In this document: piece after piece, positions 27,220 through 62,015 of the stretch | How positions within the stretch are numbered: position 1 is the first letter of the stretch | How the letters are laid out: each line of letters begins with the position of its first letter | Assembly: GCF_015265455.1 (NCBI RefSeq) | Contig: NZ_CP054492.1 | Location: 1,054,001 to 1,118,000, forward strand | Source of the DNA: Candidatus Sulfurimonas baltica | GTDB lineage: Bacteria; Campylobacterota; Campylobacteria; Campylobacterales; Sulfurimonadaceae | Length of the DNA stretch: 64,000 nucleotides | Reading direction: 5' to 3' | The notes under the pieces: model-generated | Databases searched by the model: none | The model's input: the letters and a program-made list of their open reading frames with translations, nothing else | Told to the model about the DNA's origin: nothing | Program-made: the position numbers and the translations under genes

Positions 27220-27236
27220 AATGCAAAAAATGTTCC
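27220..27236 (-). promoter_or_regulatory. Orphan sigma-54 promoter, antisense
   Basis: Read on the reverse strand, GGAACATTTTTTGCATT has the -24 GG and -12 GC exactly 12 nt apart and matches the Campylobacter-type sigma-54 consensus best of all sites seen here. It points leftwards into the 3' end of the GGDEF/EAL gene rather than to an annotated gene. Product unknown. Confidence 0.5.
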
Positions 27237-29687: not shown

Positions 29688-30956
29688 ATGGCAGCATTAA
29701 GACAAAATCAAAGTGTAGAGAACAAGCACAAGCTCTCTAACACACTTCGTAATTGGCTGCCGATTTTGCACTCTAGCTTGAGTGATCTTGGTGAAGCGAT
29801 GTCCCCTTTTATTGATGCCAATCCTGTCGTGGAAGTAAAGTCTGGATACGAAGAAAACTTTGAAAAAAAGATTCCCAAAAAAATAGTTTCAGGTCAGGTA
29901 AACAACTCTAGAACAGAGCAGATAGAAGCATTGACGGTTCAAAAAAAATCTCTTTATGATGTACTTGACGAGCAGTTGGAAGCACCGCTGTTTCCAACGC
30001 CTATATCGCAATCTATTGCCTCATTTGTAGTGGCTAATCTGGATGAAAATGGTTACTATGAAGGTGACAGTGAAGCGTTTTGTAAAATCAAAAATATTGA
30101 TATCTCGGAGTTTGAAAAAGTTCGTTTGAGGTTCTCACATGTAGAGCCAATTGGTATAGCTGCAAAAGATTTGGCAGAGTCATTTATATTTCAGTTGGAG
30201 AGCTCAGACATAAGTGAAGAGGCCTATCCTCTGTGTGTGGAAGTTATTAATAACATGGAGGATATTCACAGCTATTCAAGAAAAGAACATTTCAGTGAAG
30301 TTATGCGTGTTCTTGGAACATTTAAAAATCCTCCGGCAATAGAGTACCAAGAGGATTCAGCTCAGATTATTCCAGATTTGATGATATTTTTTAATGATGA
30401 TGAAGCCATAGAGGTCAAGCTAAATGATGCCTATTATCCGACTATTCTTATAGACACAAGTTATGCGGTTGAGCATGAATTTATTTCGCAAAAAATTAAA
30501 GAGGCAAAGAGCCTTGTTGACGCACTCGACATGAGAAAAGCCACCTTGTATAAAGTGGGGCTTATGATAGTTGAGTATCAGTATGAGTTTTTTACAGGCG
30601 GTGCGATAATGCCTCTTACTCTGAAGACTTTGGCAGATGAGTTTGGACATAACCCATCTACAATCTCAAGAGCAATCGCAAATAAATATATAGCATGTAA
30701 CAGAGGTGTTTTTGCCATGAAAGAGTTCTTTACAACTGCTATTGATGAGGATGTTTCAAATGCGGCAATAAAAGAGTTTTTAGTTACTATAGTCAAGCGG
30801 GAAAACCATAATAAACCACTTAGTGACATGAAACTGCTAGAAATGATTCAAGAAAACTTCAAAGTAGTCATGGTCAGAAGGACTATTGCCAAATATAGAA
30901 AACAGTTAAATATCGCAGGTTCCAGCGAGAGGAAAAAACTCTATTTATTACATTAA
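29688..30956 (+). CDS. rpoN: RNA polymerase sigma-54 factor (copy 1)
   Basis: Sigma-54, 422 residues, in its common location after lptB. N-terminal Region I (activator-interacting, about residues 1-50), core-binding middle, a helix-turn-helix DEFGHNPSTISRAIANKYI near 319-337 and the RpoN box RRTIAKYRKQLNIAGSSERK at the C-terminus. Sigma-54 in Campylobacterota drives flagellar middle genes. This window has a second copy inside the nif region at 36322, so this one is probably the general or flagellar factor. Confidence 0.95.
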   Translation: MAALRQNQSVENKHKLSNTLRNWLPILHSSLSDLGEAMSPFIDANPVVEVKSGYEENFEKKIPKKIVSGQVNNSRTEQIEALTVQKKSLYDVLDEQLEAPLFPTPISQSIASFVVANLDENGYYEGDSEAFCKIKNIDISEFEKVRLRFSHVEPIGIAAKDLAESFIFQLESSDISEEAYPLCVEVINNMEDIHSYSRKEHFSEVMRVLGTFKNPPAIEYQEDSAQIIPDLMIFFNDDEAIEVKLNDAYYPTILIDTSYAVEHEFISQKIKEAKSLVDALDMRKATLYKVGLMIVEYQYEFFTGGAIMPLTLKTLADEFGHNPSTISRAIANKYIACNRGVFAMKEFFTTAIDEDVSNAAIKEFLVTIVKRENHNKPLSDMKLLEMIQENFKVVMVRRTIAKYRKQLNIAGSSERKKLYLLH

Positions 30957-31749: not shown

Positions 31750-31766
31750 GGAACAAAAAATGTAAA
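31750..31766 (+). promoter_or_regulatory. Sigma-54 promoter of nifN
   Basis: GGAACAAAAAATGTAAA: -24 GG and -12 TG at the exact sigma-54 spacing (12 nt between the key Gs). The predicted transcript start near 31774 leaves a leader of about 17 nt before the nifN ATG. Confidence 0.8.
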
Positions 31767-31790: not shown

Positions 31791-33050
31791 ATGAACAAAC
31801 CACTACAAACCAATCCAATAAAATTATCACAACCAATGGGAGCATTACTCTGTTTTTTAGGTATAAAAAACTGTATGCCTCTTATGCACGGAGCACAAGG
31901 GTGTGCCTCATTTAGTAAAGTATTTTTCACTCGTCACTTTAGCGACCCAATTGCAGTTCAAACTACAGCAGTTAATGATATTACTGCAGTTATTGACGGG
32001 GGAGACTACTCTATAAGTGAAGCTGTAAAAAACATCACAAAAAAAGTAAAGCCAGACTTAGTAGGTCTTTTTACAACCGGCATGACAGAGACAAAAGGTG
32101 ATGATATTAAAGGTGCTACATTTTTGTTAAAAGATACACAACTTATGTCGTATGTGCATACACCTGACTTTGAGGGTGGTTTAGAGAGTGGTTTTGCTAA
32201 ATCAATAGAGGCAATTATAGAACAACTAGTAGAGCCTAAAGATGAAATAGATATGCAAAAAGCTCTTTTAATCCCAAATGTAAACTTGACACCAATAGAA
32301 GTAGAGAAGATTAAAGAAGAAATCTCTAGTTTTGGCTTTGAGACTTTTGCTCTGCCAGATTTAAGTGAATCACTTGATGGTCACTTAGGAGTAAAACAAG
32401 GAGCGCTTAGCAGTGGCGGAATCAGTGTTGAAGAGATTAAAAACCTTGGAGACAGTGCCTTGGTGATAACTGTAGGTGACTCGGTGTGTAAGGCTGGTGA
32501 AAAGTTTAGAGATAAAAATCCTAAATCTACACATCTTCATTTTAACACTTTGAGTGGACTTCTACATGTAGATAAATTTTACAAGGCTTTGATGGATTTT
32601 AAACATATATCAAAGCCAAAACCAAGTGTTGTTAGATGGAGAAAAAGACTTCAAGATGCTCTTTTAGATACACATTTTGCGCTAGGCGGCACAGATGTAG
32701 TTTTAGCACTTGAAGCAGATCAGGCTTTGTCTATAGCAACTACCATAAAAGAAGCCGGTGCAAATATAAAAGCTATTGTGATTCCGACAAAAACAACAGC
32801 TTTGGATGAACTAGACTGTGAGAATATTATCGTTGGTGATTTTGAAGATGTTGAAAAAGAGTTACAAGAAGCAGATTTGCTAATAAGTAATTTTCACGGT
32901 GAAAGAATTGCACACAAGTATAAAAAAGCCTTAGTACTTAGAGGATACCCAAACTACGAGACAGTAGGTAATCAACTTGTAAATGACACTCTTTATGAGG
33001 GGAGTTGTTATATGTTATTTGAGGTAGCAAACACTATAAATTCTCTCTAG
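31791..33050 (+). CDS. nifN: Nitrogenase cofactor scaffold subunit NifN
   Basis: NifN, 419 residues, the beta-like half of the NifEN scaffold on which the FeMo-cofactor is matured before delivery to NifDK. The N-terminal signature QPMGALLCFLGIKNCMPLMHG and GAQGCASFSKVFFTRHF followed by QTTAVNDITAVIDGG is typical. It carries the P-cluster-like cysteine near residue 41. It has its own sigma-54 promoter and ends just before the nifX promoter. Its partner nifE is more than 11 kb away on the other strand, an unusual separation. Confidence 0.92.
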   Translation: MNKPLQTNPIKLSQPMGALLCFLGIKNCMPLMHGAQGCASFSKVFFTRHFSDPIAVQTTAVNDITAVIDGGDYSISEAVKNITKKVKPDLVGLFTTGMTETKGDDIKGATFLLKDTQLMSYVHTPDFEGGLESGFAKSIEAIIEQLVEPKDEIDMQKALLIPNVNLTPIEVEKIKEEISSFGFETFALPDLSESLDGHLGVKQGALSSGGISVEEIKNLGDSALVITVGDSVCKAGEKFRDKNPKSTHLHFNTLSGLLHVDKFYKALMDFKHISKPKPSVVRWRKRLQDALLDTHFALGGTDVVLALEADQALSIATTIKEAGANIKAIVIPTKTTALDELDCENIIVGDFEDVEKELQEADLLISNFHGERIAHKYKKALVLRGYPNYETVGNQLVNDTLYEGSCYMLFEVANTINSL

Positions 33051-33067
33051 GGAACACTTTATGAATG
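33051..33067 (+). promoter_or_regulatory. Sigma-54 promoter of the nifX-nifF operon
   Basis: GGAACACTTTATGAATG, directly after the nifN stop, has correct -24/-12 spacing. Predicted leader about 20 nt before the nifX ATG. It allows the nifX operon to be read separately from nifN. Confidence 0.8.
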
Positions 33068-33095: not shown

Positions 33096-33494
33096 ATGAA
33101 TTCAACTATAAAAGTAACTTCAGCAGATAACAGCCTTGGAAGCATAAGAGTGGCATTTGCAACAAATGACAATGAACATGTAGATGCACATTTTGGCAGT
33201 ACGAAACAGTTTAATATTTATGATGTTAACAGTGATGATTTTGAAATCTCTACTATTATCAAAATAACAACTAAAGATACAGACCAAACAGTAGCATCTT
33301 TAGAGGGGTGTGACATTGTTTATTTTTTAAATATTGGTCCAACTGCGGCTGCTAAAGTTATCAGAAAAGGGATTTTTCCTATTAAGTACAAAGAGATTAT
33401 CTCTATTGATGAAGAGCTAAACAAACTTGTAAATATGTTGAATGAAAACCCGCCTCCGTTTATTAAAAAAATCATAGAAAAAAAGAGTAAATAA
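33096..33494 (+). CDS. nifX: NifX family protein
   Basis: 132 residues of the NifX/NafY/NifB-C-terminal fold, which binds NifB-co or the FeMo-cofactor precursor and shuttles it to NifEN. Core RVAFATNDNEHVDAHFGSTKQFNIYDV near residues 19-45 is the family signature, with the conserved DxHFG. The C-terminus ends ENPPPFIKKIIEKK. First gene of an eight-gene operon. A second NifX-like gene lies at 47154. Confidence 0.9.
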   Translation: MNSTIKVTSADNSLGSIRVAFATNDNEHVDAHFGSTKQFNIYDVNSDDFEISTIIKITTKDTDQTVASLEGCDIVYFLNIGPTAAAKVIRKGIFPIKYKEIISIDEELNKLVNMLNENPPPFIKKIIEKKSK

Positions 33495-35607: not shown

Positions 35608-35949
35608 ATGGCAAAAGTGATTTTTATGGGTTTTAGCAAAGATAAAGATGGTCTTTATCACGCACCCAAAGGTGAGCCGATTATTAGATTGGCTAAGGAC
35701 AACGGTATACCAATTAACTTTGAGTGTCAAGATGGTGAGTGTGGAAATTGTTTAATCAAATATGAAAATATTGAGGATGAGGAGCCTACAAACTATATAG
35801 ATGATTTAGAGCTTAATAAGTTAATCGAAATGGGTGTACTAAAAGCAAAAGATGCTGAGTATTGTCAGCAGTTTACAATAAGTCCTAAGGTTAGACTAGC
35901 ATGTCAAACATTAGTTAAGGGCGACGTAATTATTAAACCATACAATTAA
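35608..35949 (+). CDS. [2Fe-2S] ferredoxin
   Basis: 113-residue plant-type ferredoxin. Cluster cysteines are in FECQDGECGNC near residues 37-47 and a later RLACQ near 98-102. Long insertion between the third and fourth cysteines with many acidic residues. As part of the nifX operon it is a candidate electron donor to NifH or to cofactor assembly, similar in position to FdxB-type proteins. A second ferredoxin follows 9 nt later. Confidence 0.88.
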   Translation: MAKVIFMGFSKDKDGLYHAPKGEPIIRLAKDNGIPINFECQDGECGNCLIKYENIEDEEPTNYIDDLELNKLIEMGVLKAKDAEYCQQFTISPKVRLACQTLVKGDVIIKPYN

Positions 35950-35958
35950 GGAAAAAAA

Positions 35959-36255
35959 ATGACAACAAGAGTAGAAATAGTAAATGATTTTTTAGCAATC
36001 AATGTAAAAGAGGGTAGTACTATCCAAGAAATCGTTGAGGCAAGTGGTTCTGCACTTCCTTTTGGGTGTCGTGATGGTGAGTGTGGTACATGTGTAGTTG
36101 AAGTTGTATCTGGAATGGAATTTTTATCTGATAAAACAGAAAAAGAAGTAAAAGTGCTAAAAGAGATTTGTTCTGGTACATGTACACCAAACTCCAGACT
36201 TGCATGTCAAATGAAAATCGAAAAACCAAATGGTTTAGTTAGACTAAAATACTAA
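35959..36255 (+). CDS. [2Fe-2S] ferredoxin (second)
   Basis: 98-residue plant-type ferredoxin. Cluster ligands are in FGCRDGECGTC near residues 31-41 and RLACQ near 81-85, with another cysteine pair (CSGTC) close to the fourth ligand. About as similar to its upstream neighbour as two family members are, so recent duplication is not obvious. Last gene of the nifX operon before a possible hairpin and the separate rpoN2 gene. Confidence 0.88.
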   Translation: MTTRVEIVNDFLAINVKEGSTIQEIVEASGSALPFGCRDGECGTCVVEVVSGMEFLSDKTEKEVKVLKEICSGTCTPNSRLACQMKIEKPNGLVRLKY

Positions 36256-36276: not shown

Positions 36277-36321
36277 CAATTGAGCTGCTCAAGCCTCTTA
36301 TGGTTTGAGTATAATATTCTT

Positions 36322-37560
36322 ATGTCAAGTACATTTAATTTATTTACAACACAAAAACAATCATTACAACTGTCACTAAAACTTTGGTTGCCATTGTTGC
36401 AAGCACAGGTTCAAGATTTAGAAGCAATCTTTAAAGAGCATAGCTTTGATAATCCATTTTTGGAATATAAATCATCTTTTGAATCAAATTACTCAAGTTT
36501 ATCAACATCTGATAATAAAAGTAGTTTTATTGAGAATATGAGTTTATATAAAGAGTCTTTATACGATACTGTTTTAAATCAACTAGATGCTCCACTGTTT
36601 CCAACTCCTTCTTCACAAAAAGTGGCTCATGAAATACTTCAAAATATAAATAGTGATGGGTATTTCGAAGGTGATATAGAACAAATAGCTATTACATGTA
36701 ACACAACAAATCAGTTTGTAGAGAGTGTCAGACAAAGGTTTTCTTATCTTGAACCAAGTGGGATAGGCTCTTTAGATATGATTGAATCATTTGAGTTTCA
36801 ACTATCACAGCTTTTTATAGATGATGAGTTAAATCTTTTTGTTCAAAAAATAATCCAAAATTTAAAACAGATAGATAAGTATCATAAACATCATAGGTTT
36901 ATGGAAGCGACAGAGATTGTAAAAAGGTTTAAATATCCTCCTGCGATTGACTTTCAAGAAGACTCAACATATATAGTCCCAGATTTTTTTGTTGATGTAG
37001 GAGATGACATATCTGTTAAAATAAATCAGAGTTATTATCCAGATATAGTCATTAAAGACCCTTTTAAAACTAAAAATAGTGAGTTAAAAGATAAACTAAA
37101 AGAGGCTAGAGACTTGGTTAACTTACTAGAGCTTAGAAAATCAACTCTTTACAAGCTCGTGCTAATCATAGTAGAAAAACAGATGGGCTTTTTTGTAGGA
37201 AGTGAGCTTAAACCTATGACTATGGCTCAAGTTGCAGATGAGATAGGTTTTGAAGAATCGACCATAAGCAGAGCAGTTTCAAACAAGTACATAAAGTGTG
37301 AGAGAGGAATGTTTTCACTAAAGTCATTTTTTACAAATGCAGTTAGCAAAAACTTGTCATCTGCAGAGATTAAAAACTATATACAAAATCTTATAGAAAA
37401 TGAGAACCATGAAGAGCCACTAACTGACCAAGACTTGGTTGATATGGTGATGCAGAGATACAACATGCAGATGGTAAGACGCACCATAACAAAGTACAGA
37501 AAACTTCTAAATGTTCCATCTTCTAAAGAGAGAAAGAAGATTTATAAGGTTAGAGATTAG
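36322..37560 (+). CDS. rpoN: RNA polymerase sigma-54 factor (copy 2, nif-linked)
   Basis: Second complete sigma-54, 412 residues from the ATG at 36322. Region I is Gln/Leu-rich (TTQKQSLQLSLKLWLPLLQAQ), the helix-turn-helix reads DEIGFEESTISRAVSNKYIK and the RpoN box RRTITKYRKLLNVPSSKERK. It clearly differs from copy 1 at 29688 in both DNA-contacting motifs, yet keeps the shared KESLYD, LDAPLFPTP and PPAIDFQEDS-type blocks. Location inside the nif region suggests a dedicated nitrogen-fixation sigma factor, and no sigma-54 site precedes it. Confidence 0.93.
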   Translation: MSSTFNLFTTQKQSLQLSLKLWLPLLQAQVQDLEAIFKEHSFDNPFLEYKSSFESNYSSLSTSDNKSSFIENMSLYKESLYDTVLNQLDAPLFPTPSSQKVAHEILQNINSDGYFEGDIEQIAITCNTTNQFVESVRQRFSYLEPSGIGSLDMIESFEFQLSQLFIDDELNLFVQKIIQNLKQIDKYHKHHRFMEATEIVKRFKYPPAIDFQEDSTYIVPDFFVDVGDDISVKINQSYYPDIVIKDPFKTKNSELKDKLKEARDLVNLLELRKSTLYKLVLIIVEKQMGFFVGSELKPMTMAQVADEIGFEESTISRAVSNKYIKCERGMFSLKSFFTNAVSKNLSSAEIKNYIQNLIENENHEEPLTDQDLVDMVMQRYNMQMVRRTITKYRKLLNVPSSKERKKIYKVRD

Positions 37561-37669: not shown

Positions 37670-37686
37670 GGAACATTTTATGTGTT
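37670..37686 (+). promoter_or_regulatory. Sigma-54 promoter before the IS-broken gene
   Basis: GGAACATTTTATGTGTT has exact -24/-12 spacing. The next start codon (37768) is about 74 nt past the predicted transcript start, a longer leader than at the nif promoters. It ties the interrupted membrane gene to the nif regulon. Confidence 0.65.
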
Positions 37687-37989: not shown

Positions 37990-39477
37990 ACTCAACTTTC
38001 GCACATAAAACCTAACTCTTTTTGAGTATAAGCACTGAGCACAGCGATAATATTGAGTAAATTTTTATTATCCTTGACAACATTTTGGATTTCAGAGATT
38101 TTTGTCAGTATTTTAATAAAGAGTTGCATTGATATTGCCAGTGTTTCAAGCTCACATTCTAAATCTCTAAAGAGTTCTCCAAGAGTTTGTGGTTCATGCT
38201 TTATACGGTTAATATAACTTACAATGTTATATGCAAACATAGATAGTGTTATTTTTGCAATTAGTGATTCATAGATACGATTTTCTTCTTTTCCAAAACC
38301 GAAGAGGTTTCTGAGATCTTTATAGCCTTGTTCAATATTCCATCTCTTTTTATAAGTTGCTAGAATCTCTTTGCCTGCAATAGTAATATCACTTGAGATA
38401 AAAACTAACAACTCTTTACTTGTGTGTAAAAATACGAGCTTGACTTTACCTAAAACTGCATGTTCTACAATGGCATCGAAATATTTGTACGATATTTTGC
38501 CATGTTTACCACTACTTTTGTGACGATAGTTTTTCATACTGTCATAGATTGCATTCATAGTTTTATGTTTGCCTTTAAAGTTCCAAATAAGTTTATTGTT
38601 TGGAAGTCTTGCTATTACTGGCATACCAAGTTCATTAGCTTGATGTATGAAATTCGGTTTAGCATACCAGCTATCTACGAGCAAGTAATCTGCATCAACA
38701 CCGTTATCCAAAGCTCTTTGCAGCATCTCAATAGCTAGTATATTTTTGCCTTTAGTAATTTCACTCTTTCTCTGATATGCATTACTTCTGTGATGTAGCT
38801 TATTTGTGAACTCTGAAATATCTTTTCTATTGCTACCATTCATTTTTATAGAAAAATCTAATTGAAAAGTTGAATGTGAATCTGCATAATTTAGAGATAC
38901 GATATTGAGCGCATTGATACTCCTATGTTCTTTATTGCTCCAAATATATTTACAGCTTCCCTCAATGTATTTACCTCTCTTAGACTCTACTGTATCGTCA
39001 ATAATGAGTAAGCGATGTTCACCATTTTTATGTAGTGGTTTTATTCTTTGCAAAAGTGCAGTAGTACTTAGCATTAAAAACTTTCGCCAGTTGTAACGAC
39101 TATCTTTGATAAATCTGTAATAGGCATCTTTCCCAAATGCACTATCGCTCTTTTTTATAAATGTTGACTGGCGTTTTTGCATCACTAACATATAAACGAA
39201 GTGTAATATTATTTGAAATGGTGGATAGCCAACATTTCGTTTAATGAAGTTGCTCTGCTTAAGTATTTTTGTGATTTTTATCTCTGTTAGCACTTCAAGT
39301 ATTGGATTCTTTAATATGCTTCTCACTGCAGTTTGTATATAATTGTCAAGTTCCATAAAATAGCCTTGTATTTTTGATGTTGTGGTGACAAAATTATACT
39401 AAAAAGTGGCTATTTATGGGCTTTAATACTCAAATTAAGTTCGTGGATTTAGTGAAATCTATGTGCGAAAGTTGAGT
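37990..39477 (-). mobile_element. IS4-family insertion sequence, complete
   Basis: 1,488-bp element with 17-bp perfect terminal inverted repeats: ACTCAACTTTCGCACAT at 37990-38006 and its reverse complement at 39461-39477. A 5-bp target duplication TAATT flanks it (37985-37989 and 39478-39482). One transposase gene fills it. Intact ends, intact gene and exact target repeat indicate a young, possibly active copy. Confidence 0.93.
37992..39356 (-). CDS. IS4-family DDE transposase
   Basis: 454 residues, full length. DDE catalytic residues are seen in LLIIDDTVESKRG (first D), LLVDSWYAKPN (second D) and the IS4 signature YKKRWNIEQGYKDLRNLFGFGKEENR carrying the catalytic E in the Y-(2)-R-(3)-E-(6)-K pattern. 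The stop codon lies inside the left terminal repeat. No frameshift or internal stop. Confidence 0.92.
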   Translation of the reverse strand: MELDNYIQTAVRSILKNPILEVLTEIKITKILKQSNFIKRNVGYPPFQIILHFVYMLVMQKRQSTFIKKSDSAFGKDAYYRFIKDSRYNWRKFLMLSTTALLQRIKPLHKNGEHRLLIIDDTVESKRGKYIEGSCKYIWSNKEHRSINALNIVSLNYADSHSTFQLDFSIKMNGSNRKDISEFTNKLHHRSNAYQRKSEITKGKNILAIEMLQRALDNGVDADYLLVDSWYAKPNFIHQANELGMPVIARLPNNKLIWNFKGKHKTMNAIYDSMKNYRHKSSGKHGKISYKYFDAIVEHAVLGKVKLVFLHTSKELLVFISSDITIAGKEILATYKKRWNIEQGYKDLRNLFGFGKEENRIYESLIAKITLSMFAYNIVSYINRIKHEPQTLGELFRDLECELETLAISMQLFIKILTKISEIQNVVKDNKNLLNIIAVLSAYTQKELGFMCES

Positions 39478-41596: not shown

Positions 41597-43311
41597 CTGT
41601 AGAGACTGTGAAAGAACTAATCATGTATCAGTAAAAAGTGTCGAGCTTAAGAACATTTTTTAAGGTTCAGGCGGAAAAACTCATTTTTTGACGAAAAAAT
41701 GTCCTAAAAAAGTATAAAACTGCAAGATACTCCGCTATTTCTTGCTTGATACTCTCAAGATTGCCACTTTTTAACGCTTTCATAAGCTTTTGAAACAGTG
41801 CAATGCCAATCAGGTTCAACAATCTTCTGAAATTATAGGTGAGCATAATGAGAGCATTTTCTCCAGCAACCTTTGTTTTACCACGCATCAGAAAGTGGCT
41901 CCAGCCAAGATTTTGTTTGATTGTACCAAAAGGGTGTTCTGCCAGAGCGGCACGCTGTTTAATCATAGTTCTAGCTTCTGGTGTCTGCATCTTTGTACGG
42001 TGTTCGACAATGAGTGCTTCATGCTCCCAGCGCCAGAGACGTTTTGCAGGTGTTTTCTCAGGAAGACACTCTGAACGTAATGGACAGACTTTACATACAG
42101 AGTGGGTACCGAAATACATAAAACGCTTGATACCCTTATTCTCATAAATAGTTTTTTTTCGCTTTAACACTTTGTTGTTTGGGCAGTGATAGCAATCGTT
42201 GGCTTCATCATAATGAAATGCATCACGAGGAAACTTTCCTCTGTCTACTTGCTTTTTTTGCTTATCTTGTATGGGTACATAAACATCTATTCCCTCATCA
42301 ACACATCTCTTAATCTCTTTTGGATTGTAGTAACCTGCATCAGCTACGACTTTGATATGTTTATTGCCTGTAGCTTCTTTAGCCTGGGTTGATAGGGGAT
42401 AGAGTTGATCCAAATCAACTCCTTTGGTGGAGATGTCAGTAGCGACAATAAACTTGTGTTTACCATCAACAGCAATCTGGGCATTATAGGCCATAAGATG
42501 ATGTGCCGGTTTACGCATCAAGGTAGCATCGGGATCACTTTTACAGTATTGTGTTACATTACGCTCTTTCAATGTGTGTAGATTACTGTTCAATTTTGAT
42601 TTATATTTTTTAAGTCGATCCAGATGTTGCTTGTGTACTACTGGTGCTATCTCTTTCTTCTCACAGCTATCGCTATACTCTAGTGAACTTAAATACTCTG
42701 CTATCTTCTCATCAACAGATTCTATATCCTTACGAGTCATTGTTTCAGAGATAAGTTGATTCTTTGATGCATTAGCCCGTAAAAAGGCACCGTCAATGGC
42801 AACGACTTCTCCATCAATCAAATCGACAGAACGGCATAGCATTACAAAGTCACGAAATAATTGTTTCAGTACCTTGGGATTATCTTTGCGAAAGTTAGCA
42901 ATAGTCTTGTATCCAGGAGTAAGTCCAGCACAAAGCCACATCATCTCAACATTGCGTTTAAGTTCACGTTCGAGCTTTCTAGAACTTCGGATACTATTGA
43001 GATATCCATAGAGATAAATCTTCAAAAGTAGTGCTGGATGATATGCAGGTTGACCATCAGAACTACCACTACTTGTAAACACTCCCAAAGTAGCTAAATC
43101 TATACTATCGACATAGCTGTCAATAGCCCTTACTGAATTATCCTCATCAACATACTCATCCAGACTGGGAGGAAATAAGAGTTGTTGATGGCGGTTTAAC
43201 CCCTCTTTGTAATTTGGCATTGTTCAGCCTTTTTCGTTGATATATGATATATCTATTTTAGCTTATTTGTGATTATCACTTGCTTTGGGAGTTCTTTCAC
43301 AGTCTCTGTAG
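41597..43311 (-). mobile_element. IS1182-like insertion sequence
   Basis: Imperfect terminal repeats CTGTAGAGACTGTGAAAGAACT (first 20 of these at 41597-41616) and, inverted, CTACAGAGACTGTGAAAGAA at 43311-43292 bound a single reverse-strand transposase gene. Ends are set by the repeats and could be off by a few bases; no clear target duplication could be read. About 1.7 kb, normal for the family. Confidence 0.8.
41667..43220 (-). CDS. IS1182-family transposase
   Basis: 517 residues. N-terminal DUF772 domain (HQQLLFPPSLDEYVDEDNSVRAID near residues 11-34; YHPALLLKIYLYGYLNSIRSSRKLE near 61-85), then a DDE domain with VVAIDGAFLRANASK, VVADAGYYNPKE and a C-terminal EHPFGTIKQNLGWSHFLMRG carrying the catalytic Glu. 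A zinc-like CPN...C..CPLRSEC set sits near residue 360-385. No internal stop; probably functional. Confidence 0.9.
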   Translation of the reverse strand: MPNYKEGLNRHQQLLFPPSLDEYVDEDNSVRAIDSYVDSIDLATLGVFTSSGSSDGQPAYHPALLLKIYLYGYLNSIRSSRKLERELKRNVEMMWLCAGLTPGYKTIANFRKDNPKVLKQLFRDFVMLCRSVDLIDGEVVAIDGAFLRANASKNQLISETMTRKDIESVDEKIAEYLSSLEYSDSCEKKEIAPVVHKQHLDRLKKYKSKLNSNLHTLKERNVTQYCKSDPDATLMRKPAHHLMAYNAQIAVDGKHKFIVATDISTKGVDLDQLYPLSTQAKEATGNKHIKVVADAGYYNPKEIKRCVDEGIDVYVPIQDKQKKQVDRGKFPRDAFHYDEANDCYHCPNNKVLKRKKTIYENKGIKRFMYFGTHSVCKVCPLRSECLPEKTPAKRLWRWEHEALIVEHRTKMQTPEARTMIKQRAALAEHPFGTIKQNLGWSHFLMRGKTKVAGENALIMLTYNFRRLLNLIGIALFQKLMKALKSGNLESIKQEIAEYLAVLYFFRTFFRQKMSFSA

Positions 43312-44657: not shown

Positions 44658-45998
44658 TTACTCCCAAGGAGCAGCTTCTCCAACTATTTTAAAAACTGGG
44701 TTGTTTACAGCTGCACAAACATCTTTTGCCAAGTTTTCAAGTCCTCCGTATGCTCCGTAACTTAGCTTTTTTTCTTGGTTTACATCTACAAAGGCTACTC
44801 TTTTCTTTATGGCAGTGTAGAGGCTTCGCCCCCCTGCTAATAAAATATCTACATTATGCTCATCTATAAGTTTTGCTTGTTCGTTTGCTGGAACTTTCAT
44901 AAGTATTTTTACATACTGAGCGGCTATCTCGATATCTTCAAGTGTCGATTTTCTAACACTTGTTGCAACTACTTCTATCCCTATGTCTTGAAGTGCTGAA
45001 GCTATTGACCACGATTTATTTCCACCAGTGTTGAGTATGGCTTTTTTGCCATTTAGGATTTTTCTATATGGAAGAAGTCTCTTCTCCAGAGCTTCTTCTT
45101 CTTGGGCTATTATGATTTTTGCTTTTGCAGTTAACTCTTCATCACCAAAAGCATTTACGATTGACATAATTGCATTTGTAGTATCTCTTTTTCCGTAAAA
45201 CGATACAGAAATGTAAGGTATGCCATATCTCTCTTGCATTTTTCTAGTTAGTGTAACTAAAGATTTTGCACATACAATGACATTTAGTTTTGCGGTGTGT
45301 GCTGTTTGAATCTTCTCTATTCTTCCATCACCAGCCAGCGTTGAGACTATTTTAATACCAATCTTTTCAAGAATAGGCGTGTACTGCCACATATCGCCTG
45401 TCACGTTGTACTCACCAATGAGGTTTATACCAAAAGGGTGAATTTCCTCAGGCTCACGAGTTCCTATGAGTTGATTTAAAACAGCTTCTCCACCAAGACG
45501 AGAGCCTAAGTTTTTACTTCCAACAAATCCTGGAGCGTGAACGACAACTATTTTAATATTGTGTTTGTTCTCTAAGTTCTTACATGTAGTATCTATATCA
45601 TCACCAATCATAGCAGTTACACAAGTTTCATAAACAAAAATCGCCTTTGGTTTTTTATGCTCTATAAGATACTCAATAGATGTTATAAGTTTTTTATCAC
45701 TTCCAAAGATAATGTCATTGGTTGTTACATCTGTATAGTAACCCGTTAGAGTGTTGTTTTCACCTTCGTAGCTTGTTGGAGTCTCTCTTGTCTCCCAAGA
45801 AGCTCCTTGACATGTAGCAGGACCATGAACAAGATGAACCGCATCAGCGTATGGGAATAGGGCAATTTGAGCACCTTCAAAAGCACATCCACCAGTTGTC
45901 GCACCTGGTTTTGGTTTATCACAACTACTCTTTTTTTTATCATTATGTGAACATGCTGATTCATTCAAAAGTTCACGAATTAATTTTTTATTTACCAT
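44658..45998 (-). CDS. nifE: Nitrogenase cofactor scaffold subunit NifE
   Basis: NifE, 446 residues from the ATG at 45998, which has AAGGAT upstream; an upstream in-frame ATG at 46049 would overlap the promoter and is rejected. Alpha-like half of the NifEN scaffold for FeMo-cofactor maturation. Signature TTGGCAFEGAQIALFPYADAVHLVHGPATCQG near residues 32-63 and FVYETCVTAMIGDDID near 122. Own sigma-54 promoter, divergent from cowN. Reverse to and far from nifN. Confidence 0.93.
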   Translation of the reverse strand: MVNKKLIRELLNESACSHNDKKKSSCDKPKPGATTGGCAFEGAQIALFPYADAVHLVHGPATCQGASWETRETPTSYEGENNTLTGYYTDVTTNDIIFGSDKKLITSIEYLIEHKKPKAIFVYETCVTAMIGDDIDTTCKNLENKHNIKIVVVHAPGFVGSKNLGSRLGGEAVLNQLIGTREPEEIHPFGINLIGEYNVTGDMWQYTPILEKIGIKIVSTLAGDGRIEKIQTAHTAKLNVIVCAKSLVTLTRKMQERYGIPYISVSFYGKRDTTNAIMSIVNAFGDEELTAKAKIIIAQEEEALEKRLLPYRKILNGKKAILNTGGNKSWSIASALQDIGIEVVATSVRKSTLEDIEIAAQYVKILMKVPANEQAKLIDEHNVDILLAGGRSLYTAIKKRVAFVDVNQEKKLSYGAYGGLENLAKDVCAAVNNPVFKIVGEAAPWE

Positions 45999-46019
45999 AA
46001 TATTATCCTTGTAGTTATT

Positions 46020-46036
46020 TATGCATAAATTATTCC
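46020..46036 (-). promoter_or_regulatory. Sigma-54 promoter of nifE
   Basis: On the reverse strand GGAATAATTTATGCATA has the 12-nt key spacing with TGC at -12. Predicted leader about 14 nt. Only about 14 nt separate it from the back-to-back cowN promoter. Confidence 0.75.
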
Positions 46037-46050
46037 TTTGGAGTCTCAAG

Positions 46051-46067
46051 GGAACATAACTTGTATA
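46051..46067 (+). promoter_or_regulatory. Sigma-54 promoter of the cowN operon
   Basis: GGAACATAACTTGTATA, exact -24/-12 spacing, predicted leader about 29 nt before the cowN ATG at 46104. Confidence 0.8.
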
Positions 46068-46103: not shown

Positions 46104-46406
46104 ATGAGTGAGATAAAAGATAGATATATAACTTTTGACAATATCGATTGTTATGAAAACTCGGCGTTGGTTATAGATGCTATGATTGAACTATTTAAGT
46201 TAAAACCAGAGTCAAAAAACAGACTTTGGAATAACTTTATGAATAAAATACCACAAAACTATAGAGAAGTTTTTGAAAAAGATGGTAATAAAGACACGCT
46301 CTACCTAGTTTGCGCAAATGTATTTTACATATCTGACCTTTTTGAAGAGTATGACTTCGAAGCAGGTATAGAAGTACTTGAGCAGGTTGAGTTTGAGTGT
46401 TGCTAA
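46104..46406 (+). CDS. cowN: CO-protection protein CowN
   Basis: 100 residues. The pattern RYITFDNIDCYENS near residues 7-20, a central RLWNNFMNKIP and the ending YISDLFEEYDFEAGIEVLEQVEFECC match CowN, the small protein that sustains nitrogen fixation in the presence of carbon monoxide by protecting nitrogenase. The C-terminal ECC end is characteristic. AAGGAG ribosome site. First gene of a five-gene sigma-54 operon; each later gene overlaps or nearly touches the one before. Confidence 0.8.
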   Translation: MSEIKDRYITFDNIDCYENSALVIDAMIELFKLKPESKNRLWNNFMNKIPQNYREVFEKDGNKDTLYLVCANVFYISDLFEEYDFEAGIEVLEQVEFECC

Positions 46407-49305: not shown

Positions 49306-49322
49306 GGAACACTATATGTAAT
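49306..49322 (+). promoter_or_regulatory. Sigma-54 promoter of nifH
   Basis: GGAACACTATATGTAAT, exact -24/-12 spacing; predicted transcript start near 49330 with a 34-nt leader and an AAGGA ribosome site before nifH. Confidence 0.85.
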
Positions 49323-49351: not shown

Positions 49352-50278
<927 letters not shown>

Positions 50279-50710: not shown

Positions 50711-52174
50711 ATGAGTGAAATGTTAGAAAAATTACAACTTGAAGCTATCAAAGAAGTTTTAGAGGTATATCCTGAAAAAGCTGCAAAAAGTAGAGCAAAA
50801 CATCTAGGTGTTGATTCACCAGAGGGTGTTAAAGGTGCTTGTGATACTACAAGAAGTAATAAACAAACTGTTCCAGGTGTAATGAGTCAACGTGGTTGTG
50901 CATACGCTGGAAGTAAGGGTGTTGTTTGGGGACCGATAAAAGATATGATTCATATCTCTCACGGACCTATTGGTTGTGGTCAATACTCACGTGGCGGTAG
51001 AAGAAACTACTATACAGGGGCAACAGGTATTGATACATTTGGAACAATGAACTTTTCAACTGATTTTAGTGAAAAAGATATTGTATTTGGTGGAGATACA
51101 AGACTTAAAAAAGCTCTTAGTGAGATTGATGAATTATTTCCACTAAATAACGGTATATCTATTCAATCTGAGTGTCCAATTGGTCTAATTGGAGATGATA
51201 TCCAAGCAGTTGCTAAAAAACATAAAGCTGAGAGTTCAAAGCCAACTATCGCTGTTTCATGTGAAGGTTTCCGTGGAGTTTCTCAATCTCTTGGTCATCA
51301 CCTTGCTAATGATGCTATTCGTGATGAGGTTATGACTGATACAAGTGCTAGATCTAGTTTTGAATCAACTCCTTATGATGTTTCTATCATAGGTGATTAT
51401 AACATTGGTGGAGATGCTTGGGCTACAAGACTTTTACTTGAAGAGATGGGTCTTAGAGTTATCGCTCAGTGGACTGGTGATGCTACTTATAAAGAGATGG
51501 CAATCGCTCCAAAGTCAAAACTAAACTTACTTCATTGTTACCGTTCTATGAACTATATCTCTCGTCACATGGAACAAGAGTTTGAGATTCCTTGGATGGA
51601 ATACAACTTTTTTGGTCCAAGTAATACGACTGCAAGTTTAAGAAAAATTGCTGAGTTTTTTGGTGGTGAGATTGTAGCAAATACTGAAGCTGTAATCGCT
51701 AAGTATACAAAAATGACAGATGAAGTTATTGCTAAATATAAGTCAAAACTTGAAGGCAAAAAAGTAATGCTTTATATCGGTGGTTTAAGACCTCGTCACG
51801 TTATTGGAGCTTATGAAGACTTAGGTATGGAGATTATCGGTACTGGTTATGAGTTTGGTCATGGTGATGATTACAAAAGAACAAAAGAAGACTTAAGCAG
51901 AAGTACACTTATTTATGATGATGCAAATGAGTATGAGTTAGAGCAATTTGTTAAAAAATTAAGACCAGATTTAGTTGCTGCTGGTGTTAAAGAAAAGTAT
52001 GTATTCCAAAAAATGGGATTACCATTTAGACAGATGCACTCTTGGGATTATTCAGGACCATACCATGGTTATGATGCATTCGCAATTTTTGCTAAAGACA
52101 TGGATTTAGCTATGAATTCACCAGTTTGGTCTCATACTAAAGCACCATGGGACAAACAAGAAGTAGGAGCTTAA
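50711..52174 (+). CDS. nifD: Nitrogenase MoFe protein alpha chain
   Basis: NifD, 487 residues. P-cluster cysteines in [17 protein letters not shown] and GPIGCGQYS near residues 60-98 and a third near 160; FeMo-cofactor ligands are the Cys in [11 protein letters not shown] near 280 and the His in [17 protein letters not shown] near 447. All active-site segments are intact, and it belongs to the Mo type (no delta subunit gene follows). AAGGAG ribosome site. The nifK ATG follows the stop by one base. Confidence 0.98.
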
Positions 52175-52175
52175 T

Positions 52176-53723
52176 ATGCAAGACGTAGAAAATATTGTAA
52201 ACGGACAGAAACTATTTTTAAAAGAAGAGTATCAAGAAGTTTTTAAAAATAAACAAGAGTTTGAAAGTAACATGGGTTCAGTGAACCCTGCTAAAGTAGA
52301 AGAAATCGCTGAGTGGACAAAGTCTTGGGACTATAGAGAAAAGAACTTAAGTAGAGAAGCAATTACTGTTAACCCTGCTAAAGCTTGTCAACCTCTAGGT
52401 GCTGTAATGGCTGCTCTAGGTTTTGAAAACACTATGCCTTATGTTCATGGATCTCACGGTTGTGTATCTTACTTTAGAACATATTTCACAAGACACTTTA
52501 AAGAGCCTACACCATGTGTTTCAGATAGTATGAGTGAATCATCAGCTGTTTTTGGTGGACTTGCAAATATGAAAGATGGCTTACGAAATTGTAACGCTAT
52601 GTATAAGCCTGAAATGATTGCTGTTAGTACTACATGTATGGCAGAAGTTATTGGTGATGACTTGAATGCTTTCGTTGCTGGAGCAATACAAGATGCTGAG
52701 GGTGAGTTAGATAATACTGCTGTCACTTACGCACATACACCATCTTTTGTTGGTAGCCACATTACTGGTTATGACAACATGATTAAAGCGATTTTAGAGC
52801 AGTTAAATCCTCCAAAATCTGAAAAAGTTCTTGATGAAGAGAGAATCAACATTATCCCTGGATTTGAACCATACCTTGGGTCACTTAAAGAGATAAAAGA
52901 GATAGCTGCATCATTTGGTGATAAAATCTTTTTGATTGGTGACCATGAAGAGCAGTGGAATACAGGAGCTGGTGAATATTCTATATATGCTGGTGGTACA
53001 ACGCTTGAGACTGCAAGAACTGCAATCAATGCAAAGGCTACTGTTTCTTTACAGAAGTATTCAACAATGCAAACTTCTAAGACGATTAAAAACAAATGGA
53101 AGCAAGAGTACGAGACTTGTAATCCAATCGGTCTATCTGGAACTGATGCGTTTGTAATGAAGCTTGCTGAACTATCTGGTAAAGATATTAGTGCTGAGTT
53201 AAAAATGCAACGTGCTCAACTTGTTGATGCAATGCAAGATTCTTACCCGTATATGCATGGTAAAAAGTTTGCAATCTATGGTGACCCTGACTTTTTACTA
53301 GGTCTTGTTTCATTTATAGTTGAGATGGGTGGTATTCCAACTCATATTCTTTGTAACAACGCTCCTAAAAAGGGTTGGGAAGCAGATATGCAAGCAATCG
53401 TTGATAAATCTGACTGGGCTAGTGAATGTCAAATCTGGCCAGGTAAAGATTTATGGCATTTAAGAAGTTTACTATTTACTGAGCCGGTTGACTTTATGAT
53501 TGGTAATGTTTATGGTAAAGAGCTTTATAGAGATACAAATACACCACTAATCCGTATTGGTTTCCCTATCTTTGACAGACACCATTTACATAGATACTCT
53601 ATTAGCGGATACAAGGGTGGATTAAATCTACTAACTTGGATTACAAACGCTATTCTTGATCAGCTTGATGAAGAGACTAAAGATACTGGAAAAACTGATT
53701 ATTTCTTTGATTCAGTAAGATAG
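52176..53723 (+). CDS. nifK: Nitrogenase MoFe protein beta chain
   Basis: NifK, 515 residues, beta subunit forming the P-cluster interface. P-cluster cysteines in AKACQPLGA, SHGCVSYFRTYFTRHF and STTCMAEVIGDD (about residues 70, 95 and 153). C-terminus ends KTDYFFDSVR. Its last 33 coding bases plus the terminator are copied, slightly diverged, 985 nt downstream. One CTACATGTA motif occurs in it. Confidence 0.98.
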   Translation: MQDVENIVNGQKLFLKEEYQEVFKNKQEFESNMGSVNPAKVEEIAEWTKSWDYREKNLSREAITVNPAKACQPLGAVMAALGFENTMPYVHGSHGCVSYFRTYFTRHFKEPTPCVSDSMSESSAVFGGLANMKDGLRNCNAMYKPEMIAVSTTCMAEVIGDDLNAFVAGAIQDAEGELDNTAVTYAHTPSFVGSHITGYDNMIKAILEQLNPPKSEKVLDEERINIIPGFEPYLGSLKEIKEIAASFGDKIFLIGDHEEQWNTGAGEYSIYAGGTTLETARTAINAKATVSLQKYSTMQTSKTIKNKWKQEYETCNPIGLSGTDAFVMKLAELSGKDISAELKMQRAQLVDAMQDSYPYMHGKKFAIYGDPDFLLGLVSFIVEMGGIPTHILCNNAPKKGWEADMQAIVDKSDWASECQIWPGKDLWHLRSLLFTEPVDFMIGNVYGKELYRDTNTPLIRIGFPIFDRHHLHRYSISGYKGGLNLLTWITNAILDQLDEETKDTGKTDYFFDSVR

Positions 53724-60491: not shown

Positions 60492-62015
60492 ATGATAAAA
60501 AGTTGCAAAGAGTGTGTTACTAATAAAGAACTGCTGGTTATATATGATATAGCATCTTTGATTTCAGATTCAAGAGATATTCAAAAGTCTTTGGAGAAGT
60601 CTCTAATGGCACTCAAGAACTCTTTGAGTTTGGAAAACTGCGTAATATATAAGCTTGAAGACGAGATGCTTAATATTTTTGCATCTATTGGTCTTAACAG
60701 ACACCAAAAGGTTATATCTGAATACAGGCTAGGAGAGGGTGCTACTGGTCTTGCTGCAAAAAGTATGGAGCCAATTGTAATTGAGAATATTCATAATGAT
60801 ATTTTATTTTTAAACAAATCTGGGAATAAAAATAGCGAGACACTATCTTATGTAGCAGTCCCTTTAATAGCGGAAAATAGTGTAATTGGTGTTCTTGGTG
60901 CCAACTTAACAAAAGCTACACAAATGGACTTTGAAGAGACAGTTAAGACTTTGACAATTGTAAGTTCTCTGTTTGCTCAGTACATTAGCTCTAGTATGGC
61001 TGTTGAGTTAGAAAAAGAGAGACTCAAAGATTTAAAACTATATTATAAAATGGAGTGGGATTCAAAAGTGCATAATTTTGGTGACATTATTGGCGACTCA
61101 AAAGAGATGCAAAATATGTATAAAGTTATTGACAGAATAGCTGGAAGTGATGTAACTATTTTAGTGCGAGGCGAAACGGGAACCGGTAAAGAGTTAGTAG
61201 CATCAGCTATACACAAAAGAAGTAAGAGAGTAGAAGAGCCATTTATTAAATTAAATTGTGCTGCTATAACAGATACTTTGCTAGAGAGTGAACTTTTCGG
61301 ACATGAAAAAGGTGCCTTTACTGATGCTAAAGAGACAAGAAAAGGTAGATTTGAACTTGCAGATGGAGGAACACTGTTTTTAGACGAGATAGGAGATATT
61401 AGTGCATCAGCACAGGTAAAGCTTCTTCGAGTTTTACAAGAGAGAGAGTTTGAGAGAGTAGGCGGATCTAAAACTATACATGTAAATGTGAGACTAGTCG
61501 CTGCAACAAACAGAGACTTAGAACAGATGGTAAAAGATGGAGAGTTTAGAGAGGATTTATACTATAGACTAAATGTTATACCAATTGACTTACCACCTCT
61601 TAGAAAAAGAGGAGATGACATTAAACTGTTGGTTAATTTCTTTTTACAACGCTCAATGCAAAACCATAAAAAAAATGTTGTTATAACTGATGAAGCAATG
61701 GCACAACTTATGGCTTATCCTTGGCCTGGTAATGTAAGAGAGTTAGAAAACACTATAGAGAGAATTGTTCTTATGGGAAGTGAAGATGGGATAACAGCTT
61801 CTGAGATGAGCTTGCTTTTACCAGCACTTAATAATGTCAAAGTAGTTGCTACTAGTGATTCTTTTTCATTAAACAACAAAACCCTTGATGAATTAGAAGA
61901 AGAGGCTTTAAAAAGTGCTATGAGAAACAGTGAAAACAATCAAGCCGAAGCTGCAAAAATTTTAGGAATTACGCAGAGACAAATTGGGTATAAGATAAAA
62001 AAATATGGAATCTAA
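60492..62015 (+). CDS. nifA: Nif-specific sigma-54 activator NifA
   Basis: NifA, 507 residues, enhancer-binding activator of sigma-54 nif promoters. N-terminal CKEC, GAF domain (about 20-165), AAA+ domain with Walker A GETGTGKE near 230, GAFTDA near 275-280, Walker B LFLDEIGD near 300, and a C-terminal HTH (NNQAEAAKILGITQRQIGYKIKKYG). The interdomain Cys cluster of oxygen-sensitive alphaproteobacterial NifA is absent. No sigma-54 site with correct spacing precedes it; a TATAAT-like -10 does. Overlaps the next gene by 11 nt. Confidence 0.92.
   Translation: MIKSCKECVTNKELLVIYDIASLISDSRDIQKSLEKSLMALKNSLSLENCVIYKLEDEMLNIFASIGLNRHQKVISEYRLGEGATGLAAKSMEPIVIENIHNDILFLNKSGNKNSETLSYVAVPLIAENSVIGVLGANLTKATQMDFEETVKTLTIVSSLFAQYISSSMAVELEKERLKDLKLYYKMEWDSKVHNFGDIIGDSKEMQNMYKVIDRIAGSDVTILVRGETGTGKELVASAIHKRSKRVEEPFIKLNCAAITDTLLESELFGHEKGAFTDAKETRKGRFELADGGTLFLDEIGDISASAQVKLLRVLQEREFERVGGSKTIHVNVRLVAATNRDLEQMVKDGEFREDLYYRLNVIPIDLPPLRKRGDDIKLLVNFFLQRSMQNHKKNVVITDEAMAQLMAYPWPGNVRELENTIERIVLMGSEDGITASEMSLLLPALNNVKVVATSDSFSLNNKTLDELEEEALKSAMRNSENNQAEAAKILGITQRQIGYKIKKYGI

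Follow-up and report, generated by a model that had tools for sequence, protein, structure and literature searches.

Candidatus Sulfurimonas baltica carries a second, divergent rpoN gene (rpoN2) among its nif genes, and its nif promoters deviate from the canonical sigma-54 element at position -12. Across related genomes the deviant -12 base is better predicted by the presence of RpoN1, the other sigma-54, in the same genome than by the nif-linked sigma factor itself. We consider it probable that RpoN2 is the nif sigma-54, working with a NifA-like activator, that RpoN1 is the flagellar sigma-54, working with a FlgR-like activator, and that the nif promoters have been altered to avoid RpoN1. The gene content, the promoter bases, their association with RpoN1 and the tree of the sigma factors were all observed directly and are presented below. 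The window refers throughout to the whole stretch of DNA analyzed, which comprises 64,000 nucleotides (positions 1,054,001 to 1,118,000 of contig NZ_CP054492.1).

The Two rpoN Genes and Their Neighborhood

An initial annotation, made from the letters of the window, had described two complete rpoN genes differing in the helix-turn-helix and the RpoN box, and both genes are borne out by their coordinates (Table 1) and domains. The genome (G000), a single contig of 2.74 Mb, has two PF04552 matches and no more, both within the window, and the activator-interacting, core-binding and DNA-binding domains (PF00309, PF04963, and PF04552) are all above the Pfam cut-offs in RpoN1 and RpoN2, which share 42% identity across 407 residues. 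The two helix-turn-helix strings quoted in that annotation are correct. The RpoN box, which we take to be the ARRTVAKYR-like motif also seen in the outgroup rows of our residue alignment, is present in both proteins (VRRTIAKYR in RpoN1 and VRRTITKYR in RpoN2), and the difference there amounts to one residue, RRTIAKYR versus RRTITKYR. As judged by the promoter class of the genome and its GHNPSTISR helix, RpoN1 is probably a flagellar-type sigma-54.

The mechanical ORF of rpoN2 starts at a TTG at 36280. The gene is located among nif genes and two transposase-like ORFs, named by reading, lie between it and the nifE-like gene. CowN protects nitrogenase from CO, and its gene sits behind a promoter of the nif class.

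Table 1. Genes and promoter-like sites in the window (window positions; names "by reading" come from translations).
Feature	Positions	Strand	Remarks
Orphan site GGAACATTTTTTGC	27223..27236	-	-12 C, -11 A; behind it only an 87-aa ORF antisense to a GGDEF-EAL gene
rpoN1	29688..30956	+	422 aa; after an lptB-like gene
nif-class site GGAACAAAAAATGT	31750..31763	+	before nifN-like gene; -12 T, -11 A
nifN-like gene	31791..33050	+	PF00148; nifN by reading; opens the run that ends with rpoN2
nif-class site GGAACACTTTATGA	33051..33064	+	before nifX-like gene; -12 A, -11 A
nifX-like gene	33096..33494	+	PF02579; nifX by reading
Ferredoxin-like gene upstream of rpoN2	35608..35949	+	by reading
Ferredoxin-like gene adjoining rpoN2	35959..36255	+	by reading
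rpoN2 (RpoN-A lineage)	36322..37560	+	412 aa; complete sigma-54 with AID, CBD, and DBD; Pfam and tree
Site GGAACATTTTATGTGTTC	37670..37683	+	pattern match; GAACA-N7-TGTTC palindrome by eye; probably not sigma-54
Transposase-like ORF	37992..39356	-	by reading
Transposase-like ORF	41667..43220	-	by reading
nifE-like gene	44658..46049	-	by reading
nif-class site GGAACATAACTTGT	46051..46064	+	before cowN; -12 T, -11 A
cowN	46104..46406	+	PF20543
nif-class site GGAACACTATATGT	49306..49319	+	before nifH; -12 T, -11 A, -26 A
nifH	49364..50278	+	TIGR01287 above cut-off
nifD and nifK	50711..53723	+	by reading
nifA-like sigma-54 activator	60492..62015	+	GAF, AAA+, Fis-type HTH; one of two strong activators in the genome

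Two Promoter Classes in the Genome

The four nif sites share GGAAC-N6-TG, and the deviation from -12 C that the initial annotation had pointed out is present in each, as T at three sites and as A before the nifX-like gene, with A at -11 in all four. Upstream of the nifA-like and nifE-like genes no site was found by pattern or by eye at the spacing of the pattern. Elsewhere, the pattern GGAACNNNNNNTGY has 125 matches in the genome, and since 20 regions were chosen by hand from the 100 matches listed, some of them around PF00460 flagellar genes, the survey is no census. With a slightly wider pattern, 12 sites lie outside ORFs in these 20 regions, eight of which read TGCT and were accepted; L153:2195, also TGCT and accepted as the ninth, falls within the opening bases of a mechanical ORF. 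All nine accepted sites have -12 C and -11 T; six precede flagellar genes, encoding FliK and a flagellin-domain protein (by Pfam), three rod/hook proteins (PF00460) and a P-ring-like protein (by reading), and three precede a DnaJ-domain gene, a GGDEF-EAL gene and an unnamed ORF. The nif promoters are a class distinct from the flagellar promoters by their -12 and -11 bases.

Several sites in this genome were set aside, including two start-codon artefacts (L157:1547 and L160:2006) and a TGT site about 430 bp from the next ORF (L164:2073). The orphan site at 27236 had originally been put forward as the TGC counterpart of the nif promoters. It does have -12 C, but its -11 A, where the flagellar class has T, makes it no stand-in for that class, and with only an antisense ORF behind it we rejected it as a promoter of either class. 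The match at 37670-37683 was rejected as a sigma-54 site, since its palindrome resembles a repressor operator more and a second copy lies outside the nif region. This palindrome, GGAACATTTTATGTGTTCT, occurs twice in the genome (the other copy at G000:C1:1290352) with unrelated small genes downstream; the genome survey recovered it again as L158:1853, which was set aside, and it is absent from the repeat-finder output.

Sigma-54 Lineages in the Class

The 151 family genomes have between zero and three PF04552 matches each, and nifH is above cut-off in 57 of them. A search with the RpoN2 alignment placed 45 of the 397 sampled class genomes above 460 bits; we call this the RpoN-A lineage, and its genes are nearly always amid nif genes. 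Below 460 bits there is a gap to about 435 bits, where a second, nif-associated group, RpoN-B, comes first, followed by the flagellar type without a clear gap. A tree of 119 rows and three outgroups resolved RpoN1 (51 rows, support 93), RpoN-B (20 rows, support 100) and RpoN-A (48 rows, support 98), with RpoN-A and RpoN-B clustering together (support 90). The tree was built in quick mode with SH-aLRT support; the partial row G158 was left out, and RpoN1 of G000 was represented by its near twin from G141 (97% identical).

By a search with 21 query proteins, the next recognized gene before rpoN is ferredoxin-like in 37 of 40 further RpoN-A loci. With the same queries, two loci (L210 and L211, of genomes G322 and G456) have an RpoN-A-type gene with no recognized nif genes nearby. 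One contig scan returned 45 loci, of which eight, in records of Sulfurimonadaceae, Sulfurospirillum, Sulfurovum/Sulfurovaceae and Arcobacter, encode RpoN2 relatives at 61-82% identity; the remaining 37 are distant (25-42% identity) and mostly labeled Verrucomicrobia or relatives. The family-type labels of the sampled genomes (Arcobacter-like, Sulfurovum-like, etc.) are putative.

nif Promoters in RpoN-A Genomes

We scanned up to 300 bp before the nif genes of RpoN-A genomes for GGAAY-N6-TGN, a pattern that leaves -12 free and demands GG, so that changes at -25 are invisible to it. The 115 rows obtained were reduced to 100 sites by dropping 15, start-codon artefacts among them (sites at -10 or -22, a -7/-10 rule for two genes, and one site beyond -100); one doubtful row of G490 was kept. 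In the stricter upstream stretch the pattern occurs 71 times forward vs. 2 times read backwards, a low background. Where RpoN1 is also encoded (25 labels that represent 24 genomes, as G059 appears under two), -12 is C in none of 35 sites, T in 29 and A in six, vs. C in 59 of the 65 sites, T in four and A in two, in the 25 genomes without RpoN1. Position -26 also differs between the two groups, being T in 4/35 sites with RpoN1 vs. 49/65 without, and -11 is A in 98 of the 100 sites. Thirteen of the 14 Sulfurospirillum-type (g39) genomes contribute a single promoter each, the same one every time. Exceptions are G197 and L090/G158 (-12 A) and L087/G155 (-12 T), which have RpoN-A only and are yet deviant; in addition, G477 is mixed at -12 (two and two) and G431 has one T among three sites.

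The deviant RpoN-A branches are separate on the tree: branches with C are the sisters of the Sulfurospirillum-type branch, which has T or A; the Sulfurimonas-type branch, together with G311, G490, G152, and G197, likewise with T or A, is nested among Sulfurovum-like rows that mostly have C. By parsimony, therefore, the change occurred at least twice.

The split proposed at the outset, one sigma-54 for flagella and one for nif, finds support in these base classes, but the accompanying idea that TGT is the code of RpoN2 has to be given up, because in the Arcobacter-like and Sulfurovum-like genomes the nif promoters served by RpoN2 orthologs have -12 C. A related alternative is co-evolution of RpoN2 with its promoters, in which case a preference for -12 T would belong to this clade's nif sigma and the link to RpoN1 would be a by-product of shared ancestry. 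The Sulfurimonas-type RpoN-A does have residues of its own near the helix (I308 in 7/7 and K325 in 7/7), and -12 C is absent from all its sites. However, the letters of its recognition helix, STISRAVSNKY, are identical in the Sulfurovum-like RpoN-A, which mostly serves TGC promoters, and -12 T is seen again in the Sulfurospirillum-type branch, which is separate and has sisters with C, so we regard co-evolution as unlikely. Since the core of the recognition helix is common to RpoN-A proteins whether their promoters have C or T at -12, the reading we find most likely is that the nif sigma is permissive and that its promoters avoid a strict flagellar sigma.

nif Promoters in RpoN-B Genomes

The shared nifH site was read in 50 of the 51 type-B genomes (in G082 nifH is at the contig start, and this genome was left out); RpoN-B itself was typed by sequence in the 20 tree genomes and a few more. 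The site has -12 C throughout, and the variation is in the other half of the promoter. AG replaces GG at -25/-24 in 36 of the 37 genomes with at least two rpoN genes, while -25 is G in six and A in five of the 11 genomes with one rpoN, and A in both genomes in which no rpoN was found (81 and 83% complete). The one exception in the first group, G015, has RpoN1 yet GG; this assembly is 81% complete and 7% contaminated, and a direct search of it found no RpoN-B. Additional matches off the shared place (near -90 in G027, G036, and G056, and at -214 in G114) were set aside.

Three genomes with one rpoN and -25 A (G071, G085, and G090) have flagella and two activators, and RpoN1 may therefore be missing from their assemblies, although a direct rpoN search of them gave only the B-type gene. 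The true exceptions are G007 and G045, which retain AG although RpoN1, flagella and a second activator are all absent. G056 (g10) has GG and no RpoN1 but four flagellar rod matches. The canonical base is usual in genomes that have neither RpoN1 nor flagella (four of the five g10 genomes, G025, the Sulfurovum-like genomes and g66). Upstream of the type-B nifH site (e.g., L051, L054, L056) we observed a recurring TTACAAATTTGT-like stretch, partly palindromic, that is perhaps an activator site.

Correlated Change of Promoters and RpoN1

Tip states were scored by hand as deviant at -12 or at -25, under a rule set after the data were seen, and G322 and G456 were left out as no nif promoter was found in them; G015, the one RpoN1 genome with a canonical site, yielded no RpoN-B and is therefore not a tip. 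Among 66 nif-sigma tips, 36/36 with RpoN1 and 5/30 without it are deviant, giving a likelihood ratio of 24.9 for correlated change (p = 5e-5), a figure to be read with the fact that many tips are close relatives and independent changes few. The deviant state requires six Fitch changes, having changed more than once on the tree. Within RpoN-A the counts are 22/22 and 2/24 (LR 14.6, p = 0.0055); within RpoN-B they are 14/14 and 3/6 (LR 6.7, p = 0.15), which is not significant. Rescoring G477 as deviant gave p = 4.5e-4, and rescoring G071 and G085 as RpoN1 present gave p = 1.7e-5.

That the promoter bases reflect mutational bias or drift, rather than the identity of the sigma factors, seems to us quite improbable. 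GC content is confounded with the promoter base in RpoN-B, the lineage that is not significant by itself: the seven GG genomes have a GC of 0.49-0.57 in the fetched DNA and most AG genomes are lower. Yet three two-rpoN genomes at 0.54-0.55 (G005, G037, and G096) still have AG, and in RpoN-A the trend is opposite, as the Arcobacter-like loci, with a mean GC of 0.30, keep C and the Sulfurospirillum-type loci, at 0.40, have T or A. For RpoN-A, GC content is dismissed as the cause; for RpoN-B it is retained as a caveat.

Flagellar Promoters and Activators in Relatives

In 40 flagellar regions, searched with -25, -12, and -11 left free, we found 36 sites in 33 of the 40 genomes, and 35 of these sites read GG...TGCT, the exception being in G311. 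The comparison of -12 bases that the initial annotation had called for was thus made, and it did not refute the proposed split: the accepted flagellar sites of this genome and 35/36 sites of relatives are TGCT, and nif promoters have A at -11 and, where both sigmas occur, mostly T or A at -12. The Arcobacter-like family differs in its flagellar regions. Flagella were present in all 15 of these genomes examined, each with one rpoN match, the RpoN-A gene, and their flagellar regions contained no TGCT site in 152 kb (11 loci, G197 included) and two sites in all, vs. 43 sites in 200 kb (40 loci) of the other flagellated genomes, of which 39, in 34 loci, are TGCT. The flagella of Arcobacter-like genomes therefore seem to be independent of sigma-54. 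The Arcobacter-like loci L374-L383 have no TGCT site and their genomes no RpoN1 and, where tested, one strong activator, bar G282.

Strong sigma-54 activators, defined as PF14532 matches with E ≤ 1e-10 (weak matches of other AAA proteins were uncounted), were scored in 49 genomes. There is one such activator in 25 of the 26 genomes scored without RpoN1 (G282 has two) and at least two in 20/20 genomes with RpoN1; the fragmented one-rpoN assemblies G071, G085, and G090 have two each. G000 has two, the NifA-like protein encoded in the window and a FlgR-like protein. NifA is presumed to be the partner of RpoN2, and FlgR that of RpoN1; the activator counts themselves show co-occurrence only. The presence of a Fis-type DNA-binding domain match in both activators of G000 makes activator-based specificity possible, but the extreme form of this idea, that the sigmas are interchangeable, with NifA and FlgR alone directing them to nif and flagella and RpoN2 a dosage copy carried with the nif cluster, predicts neither the -12/-25 base changes nor their tie to RpoN1, and we think it most improbable.

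Residues That Distinguish the Sigma Factors

In published work, -24 is read by the RpoN box and -12 by the helix-turn-helix (PMC7057263), and E378 and R383 crosslink to promoter DNA (PMC5505868). In our alignment, whose chain runs two residues behind the numbering of the latter study, the place of E378 is occupied by P in 51/51 RpoN1 rows, and by E in 68/68 nif sigma rows and the three outgroup rows. By this comparison the P of RpoN1 is the residue that separates the two sigmas most sharply. The T of the RpoN box is found in 51/51 RpoN1 and 47/48 RpoN-A rows, and the 20 RpoN-B rows, GG genomes included, have S (14) or V (6) instead.

Together with the promoter data, these residues suggest a more detailed reading, which is plausible but to which we commit ourselves only tentatively. 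Two nif sigma-54 lineages may have become orthogonal to the same flagellar sigma through opposite promoter halves, RpoN-A through -12 (GC to GT/GA) and RpoN-B through -24 (GG to AG), the protein counterparts being the loss of E378 in RpoN1 and the replacement of the RpoN box T in all RpoN-B rows; a return to the canonical base would be possible once the flagellar sigma is lost.

Proposed Mechanism

Sigma-54 polymerase can sit closed and idle on a promoter until its activator arrives. A flagellar sigma that accepted nif promoters would consequently block them or let the wrong activator fire. Where both sigmas are present in one cell, the nif promoters would carry bases that the flagellar sigma should reject, reached in RpoN-A by replacing -12 C with T or A and in RpoN-B by replacing -25 G with A. 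The nif sigma would tolerate the canonical and the changed base, so that the change would cost nif little, and inactive RpoN1-polymerase would be kept off nif promoters. RpoN2 with the NifA-like activator, and RpoN1 with the FlgR-like activator, would be gained and lost as units. On the evidence of genome sequences, the two sigmas presumably do split their promoters in the cell; the direction of the base changes, their cost and avoidance of RpoN1 as their selective cause are likewise presumed from the distribution of bases and genes.

Comparison With Other Systems

The closest precedent is the RpoN1/RpoN2 pair of Cereibacter (Rhodobacter) sphaeroides, described in PMC11999139 (citing Poggio et al., 2006): nif is assigned to RpoN1 and NifA, and fla1 to RpoN2 and FleQ. 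The -11 promoter base, along with the activators, is reported to matter in separating the two classes, and a C-to-T change at -12 was accompanied by less XrpA protein (PMC11999139); the four rpoN copies of this organism are said to stem from duplication (PMC7277832). As in C. sphaeroides, there are two sigma-54 paralogs here, probably for nif and flagella, and the -11 base differs (A in nif and T in flagellar promoters). Unlike the C. sphaeroides pair, which is said to be a product of duplication and is known from experiments, the present case involves a separate nif sigma lineage carried in the nif clusters of several families, known from sequences alone, and additional changes at -12 or -25 accompany the presence of the flagellar sigma. 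Two rpoN genes whose roles differ in part, in some cases with a link to symbiosis or nif, are also reported for Mesorhizobium loti, Bradyrhizobium sp. DOA9, Ralstonia, and Xanthomonas; among the matches listed, we found no promoter-base rule for these. The flagellar sigma-54 system of Campylobacter jejuni, as covered in the consulted part of PMC3656092, has one rpoN with a small promoter set; one RpoN motif is named there and, unlike here, no second rpoN or nif.

Earlier accounts describe nif genes, nifA among them, in a Campylobacterales population genome, and nif clusters in Sulfurospirillum, of which S. multivorans is reported to fix nitrogen (PMC4674564; PMC4794192). The main texts of both lack the word sigma, and that of PMC4794192 also lacks rpoN, so a nif-linked rpoN is undiscussed in those texts. 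Among the open-licence literature matches listed (including PMC12316311, PMC4674564, and PMC4794192, in the parts seen), we found no description of a nif-linked rpoN lineage, a weak indication in itself. A nif sigma carried in nif clusters across several families, and the use of two promoter positions in two lineages, thus appear to be undescribed in the sources we have seen.

To our knowledge, how a duplicated sigma-54 escapes promoter competition has been worked out mainly in one alphaproteobacterium. The genomes studied here form a natural series, with both sigmas or the nif one only, that points to single bases and residues that may decide the separation, in two lineages that would have followed different routes. 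A few point mutants would suffice to test sigma-54 orthogonality directly, and parts for synthetic nif circuits would result. The case also suggests how two copies of one regulator avoid interference.

Further Observations on Activators

The FlgR-like activator of G000 (receiver, AAA+, and Fis-type HTH domains) is at L159:3030-4323 (approximately G000:C1 1861030-1862320), and its coding sequence is divided between two frames close to eight consecutive A. In the near twin G141, the second activator match is in an open frame of 441 aa. The split in G000 may represent phase variation or an assembly indel. Five g39 genomes (G491, G469, G351, G409, and G293) have three or four strong activators each. 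Sulfurospirillum strains reportedly possess an iron-iron nitrogenase in addition (PMC4794192), and this might explain one of the activators in the g39 genomes.
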